33,947 nt of DNA from an uncultured Acidobacteriota bacterium (lineage in GTDB: Bacteria > Acidobacteriota > Thermoanaerobaculia > UBA5066), in NCBI GenBank assembly GCA_903845115.1, contig CAIMWE010000166.1, positions 1-33,947 on the forward strand, in the 5' to 3' direction. Numbering within the stretch: the first letter of the stretch is position 1; the number at the start of each line of letters is the position of its first letter. Positions 5,736 through 20,313 of this stretch are shown here, piece by piece. The position numbers and the translations under genes were made by a program. The notes beneath the pieces are model-generated. The model was not told the origin of the DNA. It saw only the letters and a list, made by a program, of their open reading frames with translations, and made no database searches.

Positions 5736-7073
5736 ATGACCCTGACATTTCGACACGTTCGAGCCGCACTGGCGGCTCTTTTGCTCGCCCTCCCCCGCCT
5801 CGCGGGCGCCGGACCGTCGGCCGAGTCGCTCTCCCTCCAGGAGGCCGTGGCGCGGGCCCTCGCTCGCAATCCCGACGTCCAGGCCGCCCGGTCGGATGTC
5901 GCTCAGGCCGGGGCCCAGCTCGTCATCGCCAGGCAGGTCGCGAACCCGACGCTTTCGGCCTCGACGTCCAAGATCCCGACGGACGGCAGCCCGGCCGGAA
6001 CCTCGATGGGGAACGGCTTCTTCGAGAGGAGCTACGACACGGTCGTCTCCCTCGAGCAGCCGCTGGAGATCGGCGGCAAGCGACGCAACCGGAGACTCTC
6101 GGCCGAGGCGGCCCTCGCCGCGGCGAACGCCCGCCTGCGGGACGTCGAACGGGCGACGGGGAATGCCGTCGCGAGGGCCTACGTGGCCGCTCTGGTCGCC
6201 GGGGAGAGCGCCGGGATCGCGCGCGCGACCGCCGCCTCGCTCTCCCGCAGCTCCGAGCTGGCGAAGGTCCGGTTCGACGCCGGCGACATCTCCGCCTCCG
6301 ACCGTCTCCAGATCGAGATCGCCGAAGGCCGTTTCCGGGCAGACGCCGAGACCGCCGAGGGAAACGCCCGGACGAGCCTCGTGACTCTCGCGGTCCTGAT
6401 GGGGGCCGCCGGAGACTCCGGCCAGGCCCCGCCGCTCCGGCCGTCAGACTCGCTCCAGGCCCTCTCCGTCGCCGCCCTCGCGTCCGAAGTCCCCCCTCCG
6501 GGGACCGAGAAGGCCCCGGAGCTGATCGAGCGGCGGCCCGACGTGGAGTCGGCCCGGCGAAACGTCGACAAGGCCGAGGCCGACCGGTCTCTCCAGCTCG
6601 CCTTCCGGATCCCCGACCCGACGATCCTCGTCCAGTACGAACGGGAGCCGCCCGACCGCCCGAACTCCGCCGGCGTCGCCGTCTCCTTCCCGCTGCCGCT
6701 GTTCAACCGGAACGCGGGGGCGATCCAGGCCGCTGGCGCGGCGCGCGAGGCGTCGCGGACCGAGCTTCAGCGGGTTCGCTCCCGTGCCGCCGGCGAGATC
6801 GCGGCAGCCTCCACGAGCCTGGAGACGGCCAGACGCCGCGTCCGCGCCCTGGCGGGAGAGCTCCTCGAGAAGGCGCGCCAGGTCCGCGACACCGTGGCGT
6901 TCGCGTGGCGCGAGGGGGGAGCCTCCCTCCTGGAGCTTCTGGAGGCCGAGCGGAGCCTGAACGACCTCGAGCTGGCCGCGGCGACGGCCCGGGGGGACCT
7001 GATCCAGGCCGCCGCCGACGAACGCGCCGCCCGGGGCCTCCTGCCGCTGGAAGACCCCAGGGAGAAACGATGA
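5736..7073 (+). CDS. TolC/CzcC-type outer-membrane efflux channel
   Basis: 445 residues from the ATG at 5736. An in-frame GTG at 5691 exists, but the signal peptide starts immediately after the ATG (FRHVRAALAALLLALPRLAGA). Outer-membrane efflux protein family: SLQEAVARALARNPDVQAAR opens the first repeat, followed by long helical coiled-coil segments; LEQPLEIGGKRRNR and FPLPLFNRNAGAIQ are typical of the CzcC/CusC branch. It should form the trimeric outer-membrane and periplasmic duct of the tripartite metal pump made by the next two genes. Its stop overlaps the start of the adaptor gene (ATGA). First gene of the efflux operon. Confidence 0.92.
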   Translation: MTLTFRHVRAALAALLLALPRLAGAGPSAESLSLQEAVARALARNPDVQAARSDVAQAGAQLVIARQVANPTLSASTSKIPTDGSPAGTSMGNGFFERSYDTVVSLEQPLEIGGKRRNRRLSAEAALAAANARLRDVERATGNAVARAYVAALVAGESAGIARATAASLSRSSELAKVRFDAGDISASDRLQIEIAEGRFRADAETAEGNARTSLVTLAVLMGAAGDSGQAPPLRPSDSLQALSVAALASEVPPPGTEKAPELIERRPDVESARRNVDKAEADRSLQLAFRIPDPTILVQYEREPPDRPNSAGVAVSFPLPLFNRNAGAIQAAGAAREASRTELQRVRSRAAGEIAAASTSLETARRRVRALAGELLEKARQVRDTVAFAWREGGASLLELLEAERSLNDLELAAATARGDLIQAAADERAARGLLPLEDPREKR

Positions 7074-8221
7074 CCTCGAAACGACCGTCCGGTCCTCTCC
7101 TCCTGGCCGTCCTCGCCCTGGCCGGCCTGGCGGACGCCTGCTCCGGCCCCTGGGCGACCCCGCCGCCGGCCGGCGCCTCCCCCACCGTGGAGAAGGACCG
7201 CGTGTCGTTCGCGGCCGGAGCGGCCCAGCTCGGGTCGCTTCGCATCGAGGAGGCGGCCCTCCAGGAGGAGCCCCCGCTGAAGCTGACCGGACGCCTGGTC
7301 TGGGACGAGGACCGCACCACCCGGGTCACGGCCCCGGTGGCGGGCCGGGTCGTGGAGATCGAGGGGAAGCTCGGGGCCAGGGTGGCGGCGGGAGCCCCGC
7401 TGGCCACGATCTCCTCTCCCGACTTCGGCCAGGCCCAGTCGGACGCCGCAAGGGCCGCTGCCGATCTCGACGCGGCGCGGAAGACCCACGACCGGGTCTC
7501 GCGCCTGGTCGAACGGGGGGCCGCTCCCAGAAAGGACCTGGACGCCGCCGCGTCCGACGTGGCCCGCGCGAAGGCCGAAGCCACCCGCACGGCCGCGAGG
7601 CTGCGCCGCTGGGGCGGGGAGGAAGGGCGGACGGTGGACCAGGCCTTCGTCGTCGGCTCGCCGCTCTCCGGCGTGGTCGTGGAGCGGAACGTCAACCCCG
7701 GGATGGAGGTCCGGCCCGACCTCCCGGCGCCCCTCTTCGTCGTGACCGATCCGGCCCACCTCTGGGTCTCCCTGGACGTCCCCGAGGCGGACCTCTCGTC
7801 GGTCGAGAAGGGCGCCGTCCTTTCCGTCGCCTCGCCCGTCTTCCCCGGCCGTCCCTTTCCGGGTCGGCTCGACTACGTCGGTGAGTCGCTCGACCCGGCC
7901 ACCCGGACGCTGAAGGCGCGGGGCTCGGTCGAGAACGGCGCGGGGCAGCTGAAGGCCGAGATGTACGTGACGGTGGAGGTCCTCCGCCGGAACGCCCCGA
8001 AGGCCGTCGTCATCCCCGCCCGCGCCGTCCTCTCGGCCGGCGAAGTGCGCTACGTCTTCGTCGAGGAGAAGCCGGGCCAGTTCGTGAAGACCGTCGTCTC
8101 GGTCGGCCGTGAGAGGGACGGGCGGGTCTCCGTCACCTCCGGGCTGCCGGCCGGGTCCAGGGTCGTCACCGAGGGGAGCATCCTCCTGGCAGGCCTCCTC
8201 GGCCCCGGGGCCGGAGCGTGA
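7070..8221 (+). CDS. RND efflux periplasmic adaptor (membrane-fusion protein, CusB/CzcB-like)
   Basis: 383 residues. Hydrophobic N-terminal export segment (PLLLAVLALAGLADACS); the Cys could be a lipid-attachment site, but the preceding residues are a poor lipobox. The lipoyl-like half VTAPVAGRVVEIEGKLGARV and its partner VGSPLSGVVVERNVNPGMEV flank an alpha-hairpin (about 125-185) rich in Ala and Arg. A beta-barrel domain (LWVSLDVPEADLSSVEKG) and a membrane-proximal domain (VIPARAVLSAGEVRYVFVEE) follow. It bridges pump and channel. It starts inside the stop of the channel gene and ends inside the GTG start of the pump gene, so the three are translationally coupled. Confidence 0.93.
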   Translation: MTSKRPSGPLLLAVLALAGLADACSGPWATPPPAGASPTVEKDRVSFAAGAAQLGSLRIEEAALQEEPPLKLTGRLVWDEDRTTRVTAPVAGRVVEIEGKLGARVAAGAPLATISSPDFGQAQSDAARAAADLDAARKTHDRVSRLVERGAAPRKDLDAAASDVARAKAEATRTAARLRRWGGEEGRTVDQAFVVGSPLSGVVVERNVNPGMEVRPDLPAPLFVVTDPAHLWVSLDVPEADLSSVEKGAVLSVASPVFPGRPFPGRLDYVGESLDPATRTLKARGSVENGAGQLKAEMYVTVEVLRRNAPKAVVIPARAVLSAGEVRYVFVEEKPGQFVKTVVSVGRERDGRVSVTSGLPAGSRVVTEGSILLAGLLGPGAGA

Positions 8222-11200
8222 TCCGGGCGGTCGTCTCCTGGGCGCTGCACCGGCGCGCCATCGTCCTGGCGCTGCTCGGGCTCTTCGTCGTCTTCTCCGT
8301 CGTCGCCTTCCAGCGCCTTCCGGTGGAGGCGTATCCCGACGTCACGAATACCCAGGCCCAGATCATCACGCTCTTCCCCGGGCACGCGGCCGAGGAGGTC
8401 GAGCGCCTCGTGACGATCCCGGTCGAGAACGAGATGAACGGCATCCCCAAGCGGGCCTCCATGCGGTCCGTCTCGATCTTCGGCCTCTCCGTCGTGACGA
8501 TCGTCTTCGAGGACGACGCCGACCGCGCCTACGTGCGGAGCCAGGCGTTCGAGCGCCTCCAGTCGGTGACGCTTCCGGCGGGGGCCCAGGCCAACCTCTC
8601 CCCCGACTCGACCCCGGTCGGCGAGATCTACCGGTACACCCTGGTCGGGCCGGAGGGCTTCTCTCCCCTGGAGCTGAAGTCCCTCGAGGAGTGGGTGGTG
8701 GAGAGGAAGCTCCGGACGGTCCCGGGAATCGTGGACGTCGTCGGCTTCGGCGGCCCGACGAAGCAGTTCCAGGTCATCGTCGACCCGGCGAAGCTCAAGT
8801 CGTTCGGGCTGACCCTCTCCCAGATCCTCGACGCGCTGGCGAAGGGCAACCGCAACGCGGGCGGCTCGTACATCGAGCACGGTTCCGAGATGTACGTCGT
8901 CCGCGGCCTGGGCCTCGTCCAGAGCCTGGACGACATCGGCGAGATCCCCGTGACGAGCCGCGGCGGGACGCCGATCCGGATCCGCGACCTGGCGCGCGTC
9001 GACACGGGCCCGAGGATCCGCCTCGGGCGGGTCGGGAAGACGGTCGGAAACGACGACCAGGACGATGTCGTCCAGGGGATCGTCCTCCTCCGCAAGGGCG
9101 AGAACGCCCTGGAGGTCCTGAAGGCCGTCCGCGCGAAGGTGCAGGAGATCAACCGGACGGCGCTGCCCCCCGGCGTGAAGATCGTCCCCCACTACGACCG
9201 GACCGACCTGATCGAGCGGACGCTCCAGACGGTCCGCCGGAACATGATCGAGGGGATCCTCCTGGTTCTCCTGGTCCTCGTGGCCTTCCTGGGCCTCTCG
9301 AACCTCCGGTCGGCCCTCGTCGTGGCGGCGGTGGTGCCGCTCTCCCTCCTCGGCGCGTTCCTCCTGCTCGACCTCCGGGGCATCCCGGCGAACCTGATCT
9401 CGATGGGGGCGATCGACTTCGGGATCATCGTCGACTCGGCGGTCGTCGTGATCGAGAACCTCCTCCGGATCCTGGGCGAGAAGGGCGCCAGGGTCCGGTC
9501 CCTCCCGGCCGCCATCGTCCAGGCGACGACCGAGGTCGGGAAGCCGATCCTCTTCTCGAAGGCGATCCTGATCACGGCCTTCCTCCCCCTCTTCACCCTG
9601 CAGCGCGTGGAAGGCCGGATCTTCCGTCCGATGGCCTACACGCTGACGTTCGCCCTGATCTGCGGGACCGTCCTGGCGATCGCGGTGGTGCCGGTCCTGG
9701 CGAGCTTCCGGTCGAAGAAGGGGGCGGCAAAGGCGTCGGTGCCCCACGAGTCGATGCTCGTCGGGTTCCTGAACCGCCTCTATCGCCCGGCCCTCGACGC
9801 GGTCCTCGGCCACCGGAAGGAAAGCCTCGCCGTGGCCGCCCTCTCCCTCGCCGTGGCCGGCTTCGTGGCGGTGAAGACCGGCTCGGAGTTCCTGCCCAAG
9901 CTCGACGAGGGGTCGCTGTGGGTCCGGGTGACGATGCCCGGGTCGATCTCCCCTTCGGAAGCGGCCAAGCTGACCGCTCACGTGCGAAAGGCGCTCGCTT
10001 CCTTTCCCGAGGTGAAGACCGTCGTCAGCCAGCTGGGCCGGCCCGACGACGGCACCGACATCAACGGGTTCGAGACGGCGGAGTTCTACGTCGACCTGAA
10101 GCCGCGGGAGACGTGGACGACCGCGAAGAGCCGGGAAGGCCTCTCCGAGGTGATGAACCGGAAGCTCTCCGAGATCCCAGGGTGCGAGTTCAGCTTCTCC
10201 CAGGTGATCGAGGACAACGTCAACGAGGCGGTCTCGGGAATCAAGGCCGAGCTGTCGATCAAGATCTTCGGGGAGGACCCCGCGACCCTCCAGAGCCTCG
10301 CGGACCGGGCGGCGGCGGTTCTCGAGAAGGTCCCGGGTGCTGCCGACGTCTCGGCCGAGCAGCTCTCGGGCCAGTCCCAGATCCAGATCACGGTCGACCG
10401 GGCGGCGGCCGGCCGGGTCGGCCTGACGGTGAGCGACGTCGAGACGGTCATCGAGACGGCCCTCGGCGGGGCGGTCGCGACCCAGGTCCTGGAGGGCGAG
10501 CGGACCTTCGACCTCGTCGTCCGGATGGACCCCGGAGCCGTCTCCGACGTCGATTCGATCCGGACCCTTCCCATCCTGGGTCCGAACGGCGAGAAGCTGA
10601 CGCTCGGGTCGGTCGCGCAGGTCGCCATCCGGCCCGGCTCCGCCCGCGTCTTCCGCGAGGAGAACTCCCGCCGCATCGCGGTGAAGCTTTCGGTGCGCGG
10701 CCGCGACCTCGGGTCCCTCGTCCGCGAAGGGCAGCAGAAGGTCGAGGCGGCCGTCCCGATGCCGACGGGATACCACCTGGAGTGGACCGGGTCGTTCGAG
10801 AACCAGCAGAGGGCCGTGCGCCGGCTGATGGTCATCGTGCCGATCACCCTCGGGGCGATCTTCTTCCTCCTGTTCACCGCGTTCGACTCCCCCAGGCTCG
10901 CGCTCCTGATCCTCCTCAACGTCCCGTTCGCCGCCGTGGGCGGGATCCTGGCCCTGCCGGTCGCAGGGCTGACGTTCTCGGTCTCCGCCCTCGTCGGGTT
11001 CATCGCCCTGTTCGGCGTCTCGGTCCAGAACGGCGTCCTCCTCGTCGAGCGAATCCGGGAGCTGCGCCGGGGCGGGAAGGACCTGCTCGAGGCGGTCCGC
11101 GAGGGAGCCCGGTCCCGGTTCCGGCCGGTCCTGATGACCGCCGCCATGGCCACCTTCGGCCTCCTCCCCGCCGCCCTCTCCCACGCGGTCGGGGGCGAGA

Positions 11201-11316
11201 CCCAGAGGCCGTTCGCCGTCGTCATCATCGGCGGCCTCGTCACCGCCACGATGCTCACGCTCTTCATCCTGCCGGTCATCTACGAGGTCTTCGAACGGGA
11301 AGACGAGGAGTATTGA
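8218..11316 (+). CDS. CusA/CzcA-family heavy-metal RND efflux pump
   Basis: 1032 residues, the usual length. GTG start overlapping the adaptor stop (GTGA). N-terminal helix, then LPVEAYPDVTNTQAQI and PGHAAEEVERLVTIPVE, typical of the heavy-metal efflux RND branch. The TM4 proton-relay motif is DFGIIVDSAVVVIEN, placing acidic residues at 400, 406 and 413, equivalent to the essential Asp/Asp/Glu of CzcA. It has the two-fold RND layout of TM1, large periplasmic loop, TM2-6, TM7, loop, TM8-12, ending in a membrane block (GGLVTATMLTLFILPVIYEVF). It exports metal by proton antiport. Monovalent (Cu/Ag) or divalent (Co/Zn/Cd/Ni) substrate cannot be fixed from the sequence. Confidence 0.96.
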   Translation: MIRAVVSWALHRRAIVLALLGLFVVFSVVAFQRLPVEAYPDVTNTQAQIITLFPGHAAEEVERLVTIPVENEMNGIPKRASMRSVSIFGLSVVTIVFEDDADRAYVRSQAFERLQSVTLPAGAQANLSPDSTPVGEIYRYTLVGPEGFSPLELKSLEEWVVERKLRTVPGIVDVVGFGGPTKQFQVIVDPAKLKSFGLTLSQILDALAKGNRNAGGSYIEHGSEMYVVRGLGLVQSLDDIGEIPVTSRGGTPIRIRDLARVDTGPRIRLGRVGKTVGNDDQDDVVQGIVLLRKGENALEVLKAVRAKVQEINRTALPPGVKIVPHYDRTDLIERTLQTVRRNMIEGILLVLLVLVAFLGLSNLRSALVVAAVVPLSLLGAFLLLDLRGIPANLISMGAIDFGIIVDSAVVVIENLLRILGEKGARVRSLPAAIVQATTEVGKPILFSKAILITAFLPLFTLQRVEGRIFRPMAYTLTFALICGTVLAIAVVPVLASFRSKKGAAKASVPHESMLVGFLNRLYRPALDAVLGHRKESLAVAALSLAVAGFVAVKTGSEFLPKLDEGSLWVRVTMPGSISPSEAAKLTAHVRKALASFPEVKTVVSQLGRPDDGTDINGFETAEFYVDLKPRETWTTAKSREGLSEVMNRKLSEIPGCEFSFSQVIEDNVNEAVSGIKAELSIKIFGEDPATLQSLADRAAAVLEKVPGAADVSAEQLSGQSQIQITVDRAAAGRVGLTVSDVETVIETALGGAVATQVLEGERTFDLVVRMDPGAVSDVDSIRTLPILGPNGEKLTLGSVAQVAIRPGSARVFREENSRRIAVKLSVRGRDLGSLVREGQQKVEAAVPMPTGYHLEWTGSFENQQRAVRRLMVIVPITLGAIFFLLFTAFDSPRLALLILLNVPFAAVGGILALPVAGLTFSVSALVGFIALFGVSVQNGVLLVERIRELRRGGKDLLEAVREGARSRFRPVLMTAAMATFGLLPAALSHAVGGETQRPFAVVIIGGLVTATMLTLFILPVIYEVFEREDEEY

Positions 11317-11318
11317 CC

Positions 11319-11666
11319 ATGCGCTACATCGTCGGGTTCTTCCCGCCGGACCGCATCTTCGCCCTCGTGGACGCCCTCTCGGAGATCCACGTCCACGGCA
11401 TGACCGTCTCGGACGCCCGCGGCTTCGGCCAGGAGCATGATGCGGACCATCCGGAGCACCGCGAGCACATGGGAGTAGAGATGACGAAGAAGACGCGGAT
11501 CGAGATCTTCTGCCGCGACGACGAAGTCGACCCGATCCTGGACGCCATCTACGCGGCCGCCCACAGCGGCCGACGGGGGGACGGGAAGGTCTTCGTCCTC
11601 CCGGTCCTCGACGCCCTCCGTCTCAAGACCGGCGAACGCGGCGAGGCCGCGCTGGGGCCGGCGTGA
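11319..11666 (+). CDS. PII-family signal protein linked to metal efflux (PII-NG-like)
   Basis: 115 residues, three codons after the pump gene stop. It has the GlnB fold order: MRYIVGFFPPDRIFALVDAL (strand, helix), GMTVSDARGFG leading into the T-loop, RIEIFCRDDEVDPILDAI, and the B-loop SGRRGDGKVFVLPV with GDGK at 87-90. The T-loop (about 38-55) contains four His (40, 44, 47, 50) plus Asp/Glu and lacks the uridylylated Tyr of classical GlnB/GlnK. A divergent PII group next to CusABC/CzcABC genes is known (PII-NG); this gene fits by context and sequence. Nucleotide binding by the B-loop is expected. Metal binding by the T-loop is inference. It probably regulates the pump rather than nitrogen metabolism. 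Confidence 0.85.
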   Translation: MRYIVGFFPPDRIFALVDALSEIHVHGMTVSDARGFGQEHDADHPEHREHMGVEMTKKTRIEIFCRDDEVDPILDAIYAAAHSGRRGDGKVFVLPVLDALRLKTGERGEAALGPA

Positions 11667-12469
11667 CGACGGGCCTCGACCTCGACCTCGAGGCCGGCGG
11701 GCACCGGCTCCGCGCCCGGCGGCTGCCTTCTCCCTCCGGCCGCAGCGGCCCGACCCTCGTCTTCCTCCACGAGGCGCTGGGGAGCATCGGCCAGTGGAAG
11801 CACTTCCCGGCCGCCCTCTGCGCGGCGACCGGCCTCCCCGGCTTCGTCTACGAGAGATGGGGCTTCGGGAAGTCCGAGCGGCGCGGCCCGGGCCCGTGGC
11901 ACCCCCTCTACCTGCAAGACGAGGCGGCGGTGCTGGACGAGGTGCTGACGGCGGCCGGGATCGAGCGCCCGATCCTCTTCGGGCACAGCGACGGGGGGAC
12001 GATCGCGCTCCTCTACGCCGCAGCCTTCCCCGACAAGGCCGAGGCCCTCGTCTCCGAGGCCGCCCACGTGTTCGTGGAAGAGGTCACGCTCAAGGGGATC
12101 CGGGACGTCGTCGCGTCCTCCAAGGACGGGCGCCTCCTGCGCGGCCTCTCTCGGTACCACGGAGACAACACCCCAGACGTCTTCAGCGGGTGGGCCGACA
12201 CCTGGCTCTCCCCGGCGTACCGGGACTGGAACATGGTGGGGCGCCTCGCGGCGATCCGCCGTCCGCTCCTCGTCCTCCAGGGGACGGACGACCAGTTCGG
12301 GACCGCCCTGCAAGTGGAGACGATCCGGACCTCCGTTTCGGGCTCCGTGGCGGCCCACCTCTTCCCCGGGGTGGGCCACGTTCCCCACCTGGAGTCCGGG
12401 GAGGCGGTGGTCCGGGAGGTCCACGCGTTCCTGTCCGGGTGCGGAGTTCGCGTCAGCCCGGTACAATGA
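11663..12469 (+). CDS. Alpha/beta-hydrolase
   Basis: 268 residues, GTG start overlapping the PII gene stop (GTGA). Classic alpha/beta-hydrolase features: oxyanion region VFLHEALGSIGQW, nucleophile elbow GHSDGG with Ser109, acid in QGTDDQFG (Asp209 or Asp210), and catalytic His239 in GVGHVPH. A helical cap lies between about 135 and 195. The substrate is unknown; HEALGS and ERWGFGKS put it near small esterase/lyase-like members. Coupling to the efflux operon is by position only and no metal-related role is evident. No secretion signal, so cytoplasmic. Confidence 0.85.
   Translation: MTTGLDLDLEAGGHRLRARRLPSPSGRSGPTLVFLHEALGSIGQWKHFPAALCAATGLPGFVYERWGFGKSERRGPGPWHPLYLQDEAAVLDEVLTAAGIERPILFGHSDGGTIALLYAAAFPDKAEALVSEAAHVFVEEVTLKGIRDVVASSKDGRLLRGLSRYHGDNTPDVFSGWADTWLSPAYRDWNMVGRLAAIRRPLLVLQGTDDQFGTALQVETIRTSVSGSVAAHLFPGVGHVPHLESGEAVVREVHAFLSGCGVRVSPVQ
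12462..12467 (+). promoter_or_regulatory. Candidate -10 element for the small secreted protein gene
   Basis: TACAAT matches the -10 consensus at 5 of 6 positions and would start transcription about 27 bases before the ATG at 12501. It overlaps the stop codon of the hydrolase gene. No convincing -35 is seen at 16-18 bases upstream, so this is only a candidate. Confidence 0.28.
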
Positions 12470-16768: not shown

Positions 16769-17520
16769 GACGGCGTCCCCTCGCGCCCGGAGCCGGAGGG
16801 CGGCGCGGCCGTGGGGATGGTCCCGGCCGGGGAGACGGTCACGTCGGAGACGATCCGCCCGTCGATCAGGTCGATCCGGCGCCGCGCCCTCCCGATGATC
16901 CGGGGATCGTGGCTGGAGAAGAGGAAGGCGACGCGGCGGGACCGGTGTAGCTCCACGAAGAGGTCGAGGAGCCGCTCCGAGGTCGCGGAGTCGAGCGAGG
17001 CGGTGGGCTCGTCGGCCAGGATGAGGGCCGGTTCGCCCACGAGCGCCCGCGCGACGGCGACCCTCTGACGCTGCCCGCCCGAGAGGGCTCCTGGGCGCCT
17101 CGATTCCAGCCCCTCCAGGCCCACGTCGCGGAGGGCCTGCCGCGCCCTGGAGCGGCACTGTTGCTCCGGCAGCTCGCGCAGCCAGAGAGCGAACGCCACG
17201 TTCTCCTCGGCCGAGAGGACCGGGATGAGCTGGTGCGCCTGGAAGACGAAACCCAGCTTCTCGCGCCGGAGGCGGGCGCGGGAGGTCTCGTCGAGGGAGG
17301 AGGCGTCGCGCCCCTCGAACAGGAGCCGCCCCGAGTCGGGCGTGTCCAGGAGCCCGAGGAGGTTGAGCAGCGTCGTCTTGCCGCTCCCGGAGGGGCCGGC
17401 CAGGACGGCGAACTCCCCCGCTTCGACCGAGAAGGTGGCCTCCTGGACCCCGACCACCGCCTCCTCCCCGAGGCGGTAGACGCGGGTGAGGCGCTCGGCC
17501 GAGAGGAGCGGCTCGGTCAC
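16765..17520 (-). CDS. LolD/MacB-type ABC ATPase
   Basis: 251 residues, GTG start at 17520 overlapping the stop of the zinc permease gene (GTGA). Walker A GPSGSGKTT (42-50), Q-loop FVFQAHQLIPVLSAEENVAF, signature LSGGQRQRVAVARAL, Walker B LILADEPTASLD and switch His in FSSHDPR. LGLLDTPDSGRLLFEGRD is typical of the LolD/MacB/FtsE branch. It drives the FtsX-like permease encoded next. The C-terminal 20-odd residues (TIPTAAPPSGSGREG) are a loose extension. A longer upstream open frame belongs to the antisense or another frame of the permease gene. Confidence 0.94.
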   Translation of the reverse strand: MTEPLLSAERLTRVYRLGEEAVVGVQEATFSVEAGEFAVLAGPSGSGKTTLLNLLGLLDTPDSGRLLFEGRDASSLDETSRARLRREKLGFVFQAHQLIPVLSAEENVAFALWLRELPEQQCRSRARQALRDVGLEGLESRRPGALSGGQRQRVAVARALVGEPALILADEPTASLDSATSERLLDLFVELHRSRRVAFLFSSHDPRIIGRARRRIDLIDGRIVSDVTVSPAGTIPTAAPPSGSGREGTPS

Positions 17521-18317
17521 CTCCGGAACCTCCTGAGGGCGAGCGAGACGAGGAAGAGGAGCGTCCCCACCAGGATGATCGCCGCGCCGGGCGCGATGTC
17601 CACGGAGACCGAGAAGACGAGGCCTCCCAGGAGCATCAGCACGGCGGCGCCGATGGAGCCGGCCAGGAAACCGGGCCAGCGGTCGGTCAGCGGGCGGGCG
17701 ATCGCCCCCGGAAGGACGAGGAGGGCGGAGACGAGGAGGATGCCGACCACCTTGAGGGCCACCACCACCGCCATGCCGACCAGCGAGAGGACGAGGAGGC
17801 GCATCCCCCGGACGTTCACGCCGTTCGCCTCGGCCCCCTCGTCGTCGATGGACGAGAGGAGGAGGGGCCGGAAGTACCAGGCCAGGAGGAGGAGGATCGC
17901 CCCCGTCGCCCCGGCCAGGAACCAGAGGTCGGCGGCCGAGGCGGTCAGGATGTTCCCGAACATCAGGCCGAAGAGGTCCACGTTCGACTTCAGGAAGCCG
18001 ATCGCCACGACGCCGAGCGCCATGGCGGCGACGGTGAAGACGCCGACCGCGGTGTCCTCGCTGACGCTGGAGTCGCCGGACGAGCGCGACGTCGCCCACG
18101 CCACGGCCAGCGCCGCCGCGGCGCCGCCGAGCGGCGTGGGGACCCCGAGGAGCGCGGCGATGGCCACGCCGCCGAACGCCGCGTGGGCGACGCCGGAGCC
18201 GACGAAGGCCAGCCGCCGGAGGAGGACGAAGAACGAGAGCGACCCGCAGAGGACGGCCGTCAGCAGCCCGGCCAGGAGCGCCCGCTGGAAGAACGGGTAG
18301 GCGAGGAAGTCGATCAC
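17517..18317 (-). CDS. znuB: Zinc/manganese ABC transporter permease (ZnuB/TroC-like)
   Basis: 266 residues, GTG start overlapping the ATPase gene stop (GTGA). About eight hydrophobic helices: PFFQRALLAGLLTAVLCGSL at the start, VGSGVAHAAFGGVAIAALLG with the conserved small residues of the metal path, VGVFTVAAMALGVVAIGFL, then LFGLMFGNILTASAADLWFL and the conserved loop VKVVGILLVSALLVLPGAIA-like segment (written here ALKVVGILLVSALLVLPGA). ABC-3 family. It takes up divalent metal with ZnuC and ZnuA encoded directly upstream. Zinc rather than manganese is inferred from the His-rich binding protein. Confidence 0.93.
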   Translation of the reverse strand: MIDFLAYPFFQRALLAGLLTAVLCGSLSFFVLLRRLAFVGSGVAHAAFGGVAIAALLGVPTPLGGAAAALAVAWATSRSSGDSSVSEDTAVGVFTVAAMALGVVAIGFLKSNVDLFGLMFGNILTASAADLWFLAGATGAILLLLAWYFRPLLLSSIDDEGAEANGVNVRGMRLLVLSLVGMAVVVALKVVGILLVSALLVLPGAIARPLTDRWPGFLAGSIGAAVLMLLGGLVFSVSVDIAPGAAIILVGTLLFLVSLALRRFRR

Positions 18318-19012
18318 GAGACGGGCACCGCTCGGACCGTTCCGTCCACGCGCCAGATGGCGTCGGCGCCTCCCATCGAGTCGCTGTCGTGCGTCACGTA
18401 GACGACGGCCCGGCCGTGGTTGACCTCCTCGGCGACGATCCGCCGGAGGGTCTTCATCCCCTCGGCGTCGAGCGCGGTGTCCGGCTCGTCCAGGACCAGG
18501 ATCGGCGGGGAGCCGGCCAGGGCGCGGGCCAGGAGGACCCGCTGGCGCTGCCCGCCCGACAGCTGCCCGACCGGGCGCTCGAACAGCTCGGGCGAAAGGC
18601 CCGCCCGGGAGAGCGCCGCCCGGGCCTCCCCGTCGAGCCGCTTCGCCGGGCGGAGACCGGGCCGGGGGTCCAGCTCGAGGCGGATCAGGTCCATCCCCGA
18701 GACGGGGGCGTCGGGAGAGAGGGTGCTCCGCTGGGAGAGGTAACCGATCCGGGGCTTCGGCAGGGGCGTGCCGGCCGCATCGAGGAACGTGACGGTCCCT
18801 TTGACCGGCCGGAGGAGGCCGAGCATCACGCGGACGAGCGTCGTCTTGCCGCCCCCGTTGGGTCCGACCAGCGCCGTCCGCTCCCCCGCGCGGATGTCGA
18901 ACGAGGCGTCGCAGAGGATCCATCGCCCGTCGCGCGCGACGACGATGTCGCGAAAGGCGACCGTGGTCACCTGGGGGGCCGGGGCGGCCACGGGGACCGG
19001 TTCGGCAGTCAC
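18314..19012 (-). CDS. znuC: Zinc ABC transporter ATP-binding protein (ZnuC-like)
   Basis: 232 residues, GTG start overlapping the znuA stop (GTGA). Walker A GPNGGGKTT, Q-loop IGYLSQRSTLSPDAPVSGMD, signature LSGGQRQRVLLARAL, Walker B ILVLDEPDTALD and switch His in VTHDSDSM. The order and spacing, and PKPRIGYLSQRS in particular, match metal-type (ZnuC/MntB) ATPases. The first 15 residues (VPVAAPAPQVTT) are a Pro/Ala-rich leader before the fold. Energises uptake with ZnuB. Confidence 0.93.
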   Translation of the reverse strand: MTAEPVPVAAPAPQVTTVAFRDIVVARDGRWILCDASFDIRAGERTALVGPNGGGKTTLVRVMLGLLRPVKGTVTFLDAAGTPLPKPRIGYLSQRSTLSPDAPVSGMDLIRLELDPRPGLRPAKRLDGEARAALSRAGLSPELFERPVGQLSGGQRQRVLLARALAGSPPILVLDEPDTALDAEGMKTLRRIVAEEVNHGRAVVYVTHDSDSMGGADAIWRVDGTVRAVPVS

Positions 19013-20016
19013 GGCTTCGGCGGGCTCTCGCCCCGGAACGTCGTCGTCAAGGCGGCCCCATTAAACCGCATCATCTCGAAGTAGGTCGCGCGCCCCGGGA
19101 CGCCGCCGATCGGGTCGAGGAGGCCGATGCGGAGGCCCGCGTCCGACGCGATGGCCTTTGCGGCCGACTCCGGGAACTGCGGCTCGGTGAAGAGGACGTC
19201 GAAGCCCCCCGCGCGCGCGTCGTCCACGAGGGCGCGGAGCTGCCGCGGCGACGGCTCGCGCCCCGGGGCCGGCTCGATCGACCCGGCCAGCCGGAGGCCG
19301 TACCGGGCGACGAAGTGGGGCCACGCGGGGTGGGCCGCGAGAAAGGCCTTCCCCTTGAACGGAGCGAGGGCGACCGCCAGCTCCCGGTCGAGCCGGTCGA
19401 TCTCCGCGATCGTCTCCGCCCCCCGCGCCCGGTACGCTCCCGCTCCGGCCGGGTCGACCCGGCAGAGCGTCTCCGCCATCGCCCCGGTAGCGCGGGCCGC
19501 CAGAGGCGGGGAGAGCCACCAGTGCGGGTCGGGTTCGTCTCCGCCATTCCCCTCGCCGTGGGAATGCCCCTCGTGGCCTCCCCCGGCCACCAGGCCGATG
19601 CCGAGCGAGCCCCCGGCGTCCAGGAGAACGGCTCCCGCGGCCGCAGCCCGCGCCAGCTGGGCCGCCCAGTCGTCGTACCCTCCCCCGACCGTCACGACGA
19701 GCCGCGCGCCGGCCAGCCGGCGGACGTCCTTCGGGGCCGGCTCGAACATGTGGGCGGAGGTCCCCGGCGGCACGATGGTCCGGACCTCCCACGCGGGTCC
19801 GGCGACCCGGGCCAGGAGGTCGGAGAGCGGGGCGATCGTGGCCGCCGCGACCTTCTTCCCGGAGGGCGCGGAGGTCCGGCCGCAGCCCGGGCCCAGCAGC
19901 AGGACGCCGCAGAGGAGAGGAAAGCGGAAGAGCCCCGCGGCCGACCTCCATTGACGGGGCCGCCGCGCCGCGAGACGATCTCCCGAAGGCGGAGCGCGAT
20001 GACCTGTACCGACCAT
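19009..20016 (-). CDS. znuA: Zinc-binding protein of ABC transporter (ZnuA-like)
   Basis: 335 residues from the ATG at 20016. The export signal is placed late (GLFRFPLLCGVLLLGPGC, Cys45 possibly lipidated), after an Arg-rich stretch of about 30 residues; no later ATG, GTG or TTG start exists in frame before it. Probable zinc ligands are His89 (GTSAHMFEP), His165 (DPHWWLSP), His229 or His234 (AAHPAWPHF) and Asp301 (LLDPIGG), in the order of the ZnuA family. A short His/Asp/Glu-rich loop at about 147-165 (GGHEGHSHGEGNGGDEPD) is typical of zinc-specific members. First gene of the eight-gene operon. Its start overlaps the start of the divergent His-rich gene by 18 bases. Confidence 0.9.
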   Translation of the reverse strand: MVGTGHRAPPSGDRLAARRPRQWRSAAGLFRFPLLCGVLLLGPGCGRTSAPSGKKVAAATIAPLSDLLARVAGPAWEVRTIVPPGTSAHMFEPAPKDVRRLAGARLVVTVGGGYDDWAAQLARAAAAGAVLLDAGGSLGIGLVAGGGHEGHSHGEGNGGDEPDPHWWLSPPLAARATGAMAETLCRVDPAGAGAYRARGAETIAEIDRLDRELAVALAPFKGKAFLAAHPAWPHFVARYGLRLAGSIEPAPGREPSPRQLRALVDDARAGGFDVLFTEPQFPESAAKAIASDAGLRIGLLDPIGGVPGRATYFEMMRFNGAALTTTFRGESPPKP

Positions 20017-20313
20017 GGAGTTCACCCGCACGTACACGGCCCTGGCTGCGGACATCAGCAAATCACCCATGGCGACCACACGGATTATCTCCACGACGGC
20101 CATCTCCACTCGCCGCACGGCTCCCACAACGACGAGCACCACCTGGACGTGAACCGGCGGCTCCCGGCCGCCTGCGCCCCTCTCGACTGCCCGGAGCGCC
20201 ACCACGAGGGCCGCGACCCCGCCGTCCCTCACGGGGACCACGTCGACTACGAGGTGGACGGCACGCTCCACCACCCGCACGAGGACCACTGCGACCTCCA
20301 CGGCCGCATCTGA
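19999..20313 (+). CDS. Histidine-rich small protein, probable zinc binder
   Basis: 104 residues with about 26 His plus many Asp/Glu and four Cys. Repeating motifs are HPHVHGPGCGHQ, HGDHTDYLHDGHLHSPHGSH and, near the end, HGDHVDYEVDGTLHHPHEDH, suggesting two related metal-binding halves around a Cys segment (ACAPLDCPERHHE). No signal peptide, so cytoplasmic. Similar His-rich proteins occur in other bacteria near metal genes. The role may be zinc storage, buffering or delivery. It is divergent from znuA, with which its first 18 bases overlap. GGAG lies shortly before the ATG. Confidence 0.8.
   Translation: MTCTDHGVHPHVHGPGCGHQQITHGDHTDYLHDGHLHSPHGSHNDEHHLDVNRRLPAACAPLDCPERHHEGRDPAVPHGDHVDYEVDGTLHHPHEDHCDLHGRI

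Follow-up and report, generated by a model that had tools for sequence, protein, structure and literature searches.

The question raised by this locus is what a PII protein does directly behind a heavy-metal efflux pump. The DNA examined, hereafter the window, is the whole 33,947-nt stretch of contig CAIMWE010000166.1 from an uncultured Acidobacteriota bacterium (assembly GCA_903845115.1). In it a pump of the resistance-nodulation-division (RND) type (8218..11316, GTG start, 1032 amino acids) is followed on the same, plus, strand by a gene for a 115-amino-acid PII protein (11319..11666, ATG start), separated from it by the 2 nt that a preceding sequence-only reading had noted. The PII protein is very probably the dedicated partner of the pump encoded just 5' of it, and we find it somewhat better than an even prospect that it regulates this pump directly. 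A wider reading is offered tentatively and is, taken whole, rather unlikely: that certain RND pumps have at their C-terminus a docking tail for a dedicated PII protein, that this PII gates transport by its nucleotide state, and that in some lineages, including that of the window, its T-loop has been rebuilt to sense cytosolic metal through His or Cys.

The window protein matches Pfam P-II (PF00543) with 67.6 bits (cut-off 25); DUF3240 (PF11582) was rejected as a better family, its match being weak (23.1 bits against a cut-off of 21). A Foldseek search with the protein's structural model gave exclusively PII structures as top matches (E 3e-11), and the AlphaFold2 single-chain model has a confident core, with disorder predicted for residues 39-52. 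The alignment with E. coli GlnB runs gap-free through a T-loop of equal length, and the protein keeps K58 and the GDGK of the nucleotide-binding B-loop (residues 87-90, 11577..11588), the latter as the sequence-only reading had it; Arg103 has become Lys. In canonical PII proteins Gln39 contacts 2-oxoglutarate and Mg, and Tyr51 is the residue modified by uridylylation. In the window protein Glu39, His47 and Met51 replace Gln39, Arg47 and Tyr51 of the nitrogen-type GlnB/GlnK, and the earlier claim that no Tyr is left for uridylylation is correct. Although in sequence and fold the protein as a whole matches canonical PII, as would befit an ordinary GlnB/GlnK lying beside a pump by chance, we rejected this identity and regard it as scarcely credible: the three residues are gone, the protein falls inside a clade of RND-linked PIIs (see below), and canonical PII genes are present in the same genome, on contig C117.

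Homologues were sought in just under 2000 genomes in total. In a tree of 87 PIIs (the original sequences of the PII new group, PII-NG, such as GSU2134, not being among them), all 41 RND-linked rows and one orphan form a single clade with support of 100/100, and the sequence-only reading, which had tied homologues of the protein to RND pumps, is upheld in this respect; the alignment has few columns and the bootstrap is unsettled, so that the inner branches are rough. The orphan (L272; L287 5917-6252) has a DNA polymerase III alpha-like gene, not a pump, as its neighbour. The window PII shares a long stem with its relatives in two genomes, G008 (80% identity) and G002 (76%), and this group adjoins one formed by L016, L024, L129, L261 and L263 (91/82). 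Within the window's class, PII genes scoring at least 129 bits with a profile of RND-linked PIIs adjoin a pump, save that of L135, which has none on its fetched stretch; those below 129 bits are canonical PIIs, apart from two others without linkage (L141, L151), and a scan of the genome contigs found chiefly canonical PIIs. Gln39 is present in none of the 41 RND-linked PIIs and in 196 of the 221 scored as unlinked, Arg47 and Tyr51 being likewise lost in the linked ones; since a few linked PIIs cut by contig ends (L129, L135, L163) are hidden among the 221, the contrast is conservative. The RND linkage of the window's PII group is real and old, and by pump linkage and clade membership the window protein is of the PII-NG kind.

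PII-NG was reportedly first described by Sant'Anna et al. in 2009. The term covers PII proteins linked to heavy-metal RND operons in proteobacteria and some bacteroidetes (PMC11617674, PMC7726332), and independent work in Geobacter reports that cobalt induces a PII-NG-czcABC operon (PMC7726332). The window protein resembles such members as GSU2134 of Geobacter sulfurreducens in its PII domain and in its linkage to a heavy-metal RND operon, and the loci collected here extend the group beyond the published phyla to Acidobacteriota, Planctomycetota and plasmids of Nitrospirota. CutA1 has a PII-like fold and, according to PMC7726332, binds metal; unlike it, the window protein has a true P-II domain with GDGK, and Pfam gives no CutA1 match.

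The pump belongs to a tight operon in the order TolC-adaptor-pump-PII, in which the gene for a TolC-like outer-membrane protein (5736..7073) overlaps by 4 nt that of a CusB/HlyD_D23 periplasmic adaptor (7070..8221, ATG at 7070), which in turn overlaps the pump start by 4 nt. The same order is found in G008 and G002, where identity to the window is 76-80% for PII, 79% for the pump, 55-57% for the adaptor and 50% for TolC; PII and pump are equally conserved and adaptor and TolC far less, which fits a PII acting on the RND protein. The pump is a member of the CusA/CzcA family (TIGR00914, 961.6 bits, cut-off 701), and its nearest relative of solved structure is the Cupriavidus Zn pump ZneA (PDB 4k0e/4k0j; 842 bits, against 602 bits for CusA). 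The E. coli Cu/Ag pump CusA shares TIGR00914, but the positions of its Met573, Met623 and Met672 are R, T and E in the window pump, and a Cus-type copper pump was rejected for lack of this Met triad. The positions of ZneA D602, E610 and D654, which we take to be acidic Zn-binding site residues, are occupied by D, E and D, and transmembrane helix 4 reads DFGIIVDSAVVVIEN, with the DFG-D-EN motif. Judged from these residues the pump likely has a divalent substrate; positions 678 and 684 of ZneA, considered as further ligands, did not fit the alignment and were dropped. Applied to the window, the earlier statement that PII-NG proteins stand near CusABC-type genes is sound as to the linkage with RND pumps and wrong as to the metal class of the pump. 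Unlike ZneA, which is not known to have a PII partner, the window pump ends in EDEEY. A second PII-like protein, with T-loop GVGYGYEP... and GDGI for GDGK, is encoded directly 3' of Cu/Ag-type CusA pumps that have the Met triad and end in other tails (L432, L438, L444, L446, L448, L449, L455).

The candidate point of contact is the C-terminal tail of the pump, FEREDEEY (11290..11313). PII-NG-linked pumps tend to have an acidic residue before a hydrophobic or aromatic last one (EEEY, RVEY, QTEF, EVEI, DVEL), a pattern that was first noticed on 33 linked and 21 unlinked pumps. In the main test, made on 120 stretches holding pumps of the class with their flanks and overlapping the discovery data, the simple pattern [DE][YFILVMW] at the pump end occurs in 20 of 22 PII-NG-linked pumps versus 14 of 103 others, 12 of these 14 belonging to one subclade with tails ending in LEV; a tighter pattern, adjusted to these data, separates 20/22 from 1/103. 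The pump tree offers 11 independent pairs differing in linkage, of which the tail agrees with linkage in about 8 and opposes it in none (p ~0.008). This covariation suggests a direct contact between pump tail and PII, to which we give an even chance. In the literature found, which mentions PII-NG linkage, leaves most subscription journals outside and does not include the 2009 paper, neither tail-PII covariation, PII-RND contact nor a His-rich T-loop is described, and the novelty of the covariation is provisional.

A second data set and several contrary points bear on the docking tail. Most linked pumps of the main test had already been in the discovery set, which makes the Desulfobacterota loci, fetched afterwards, the cleaner test; there the simple pattern recurs, 7 of the 12 linked pumps whose tail could be read showing it, with p 0.001 against the unlinked pumps of the window's class, none of which is of the phylum itself. 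The Desulfobacterota pumps without the pattern are mostly of a group ending KWFAID..., like those of L083, L103 and L260. Against docking, two linked pumps (L289, L401) lack the tail, and other tails occur where linked pumps belong to the alpha/planctomycete or plasmid groups. The LEV subclade (L323-L333, L336, L347, L357), made up of divalent-type pumps ending ...DRLEV or ...DKLEV, bears a similar tail with no adjacent PII. Furthermore, the tail codons of the window clade, where GAGGAG is a possible ribosome-binding site of the PII gene, may serve both purposes, and the motif could then be a by-product in which GAG codons are merely read as Glu. The last pump codons are indeed purine-rich in the window clade and in L291 (gap 3-6 nt), but most other linked loci have an intergenic ribosome-binding site, their tail codons vary (GAA, GAG, GTT, GTC), and the motif is absent from unlinked pumps that have a gene close downstream, except L324 of the LEV subclade. 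The ribosome-binding site was rejected as the cause for most loci, the window clade being where it may apply, and as a general account of the tail we consider it highly unlikely. In a separate locus, L341 (G091, C123), the pump reads RVEVD and then continues with residues that resemble a PII C-terminus (TVMIRTGGRSREAL) and look like the remnant of a PII gene lost by a deletion that fused both genes.

The second element of interest is the T-loop of the PII protein (residues 37-55, 11427..11483), which carries His40, His44, His47 and His50 among the acidic residues E39, D41, D43, E46 and E49, as the sequence-only reading had described. At a His content of 2.5%, at least four His in 14 positions would be expected with a chance of about 3e-4, and the His content of the window's proteins is 1.8%. 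Nearly all of the 221 PIIs scored as unlinked have no or one T-loop His (usually the canonical H42), ten have two, and the single one with three (L163) in fact lies divergent from a CusABC operon. Mean T-loop His plus Cys is 1.68 in RND-linked and 0.90 in unlinked PIIs; p is 2e-6 on the raw data, and clustering of the sequences raises it to 0.005 (at 75%) or 0.025 (at 60%). The loop of the window clade is under purifying selection, with pS of 0.81-0.91, near saturation, versus pN of 0.12-0.14; none of the four His is replaced in G008 or G002, and codons 40, 44 and 47 show a silent change in at least one relative. Conservation of these His in close homologues, on which the sequence-only reading had staked its idea, was accordingly found, and coming from three sequences it is support and not proof.

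These results bear on a rival explanation, that PII-NG gates the pump by ATP/ADP alone and that the His-rich loop is a lineage-specific metal buffer or a decoration without signalling. GDGK is kept in most members, Lys90 being present in 34 of the 41 RND-linked PIIs, while T-loops range from no His to five, as gating by energy state alone would have it; opposed to it are the four His retained despite nearly saturated silent sites and the excess of His plus Cys in linked PIIs that survives both clusterings. We judge energy-only gating to be unlikely. The metal-sensing reading has its own difficulties, as the window clade comprises only three sequences, and four of four sites kept at about 79% identity would have a chance near 0.4 were it not for the codon argument. 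Some PII-NG proteins (L021, L023) have no T-loop His at all and some members lack Lys90 of GDGK, so that neither metal nor nucleotide sensing is universal. The count of T-loop His is 4-5 in the window clade, 4 in Thauera (where GDGM replaces GDGK) and 3 in L016/L024, and in L018/L132 a Cys subclade has the motif RCDCTPxPC; T-loop His as a family-wide rule was rejected on this spread. The His loop is a trait of its clade, possibly one of several solutions, and metal binding through the T-loop can be no more than such a trait; for the window clade we hold metal binding at the T-loop to be a serious possibility, a little short of even. In L018 tandem PII genes (1081-1410 and 1483-1872) follow one pump; one of them has a Cys-rich T-loop, RCDCTPAPC, which L132 shares and which could supply ligands to a thiol-seeking metal. 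Plasmids of Thauera, Cupriavidus and Ca. Manganitrophus carry PII-NG genes beside RND metal operons (L150, L163, L164, L165, L166); Lys90 is absent in all five, and nikR adjoins two of the Manganitrophus operons.

GlnK is a PII protein encoded beside a trimeric membrane transporter, AmtB, which it gates. The window likewise has a PII gene adjoining a transporter gene, and our gating model is drawn from GlnK-AmtB by analogy; it differs in having another transporter, in a His-rich T-loop without Gln39, Arg47 and Tyr51, and in a proposed contact that includes the C-terminal tail of the transporter. In this model a PII-NG trimer would dock against the pump trimer from the cytosolic side, recognising the short acidic-hydrophobic tail, and its conformation would be set by its ATP/ADP state. 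The T-loop of the window clade, rich in His, Asp and Glu and probably disordered in the empty state, would bind a divalent ion of the Zn/Co/Ni class at high cytosolic metal, and the metal-loaded loop may then change the grip on the pump in the way that GlnK gates AmtB. The likeliest scheme, by the same analogy, is that PII-NG would restrain the pump under metal scarcity or low energy, and that metal at the T-loop would bring about release or a change of pose, the opposite sign being equally open. The full metal- and nucleotide-gated mechanism is unlikely to hold in all its parts.

Alternatively, PII-NG may serve as a cytosolic signal of metal or energy to another target, such as a transcription regulator, and be merely co-expressed with the pump. 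PII proteins have many partners, and the Geobacter study proposes a sensor role in a regulatory cascade (PMC7726332), but the pump's own tail covaries with PII linkage, PII is conserved in step with the pump and above adaptor and TolC, and no metal-regulator-like open reading frame (ORF) is listed next to the operon (ORFs not scanned individually). We regard such a target as distinctly unlikely. Of the sequence-only proposal that a His-loop PII directly regulates the pump, what stands is the pump as partner, favoured by the tail covariation, together with the His kept in close relatives; what falls is T-loop His as a general rule, and the gating by metal and ATP/ADP that it suggested stays a proposal. 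PII-NG proteins, described in 2009, still have no established function, and with a candidate docking element on the pump that question can be put to a direct test. If direct control of the pump by PII-NG is true, RND metal pumps would be under fast post-translational control that responds to the energy state and, for some lineages, also to metal in the cytosol, an allosteric control of RND efflux akin to GlnK-AmtB for which we met no earlier description in the literature searched.

The remaining genes stand apart from these subjects. An alpha/beta hydrolase gene (11663..12469, plus strand) has a GTG start that overlaps the PII stop; it is not kept beside PII in the relatives, was dropped as a conserved operon partner, and is probably outside the system. 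Further along, at 17517-20313, the window holds a ZnuABC-like zinc importer on the minus strand, its ZnuA partly rich in His, and on the plus strand, at 20002-20313, a small His-rich ORF that repeats the HGDH motif and has no Pfam match. Elsewhere in the same genome, L037 (C121) holds at 7989-8273, directly behind another RND pump gene and ahead of one for an ArsR-like regulator, a PII-like gene that is short and divergent (35 bits with Pfam P-II), and in L038 (C31, 6652-13352) a CrcB-like fluoride channel and a DUF190-like two-domain PII-like gene, identified by eye, lie just upstream of a further adaptor-pump-TolC operon.

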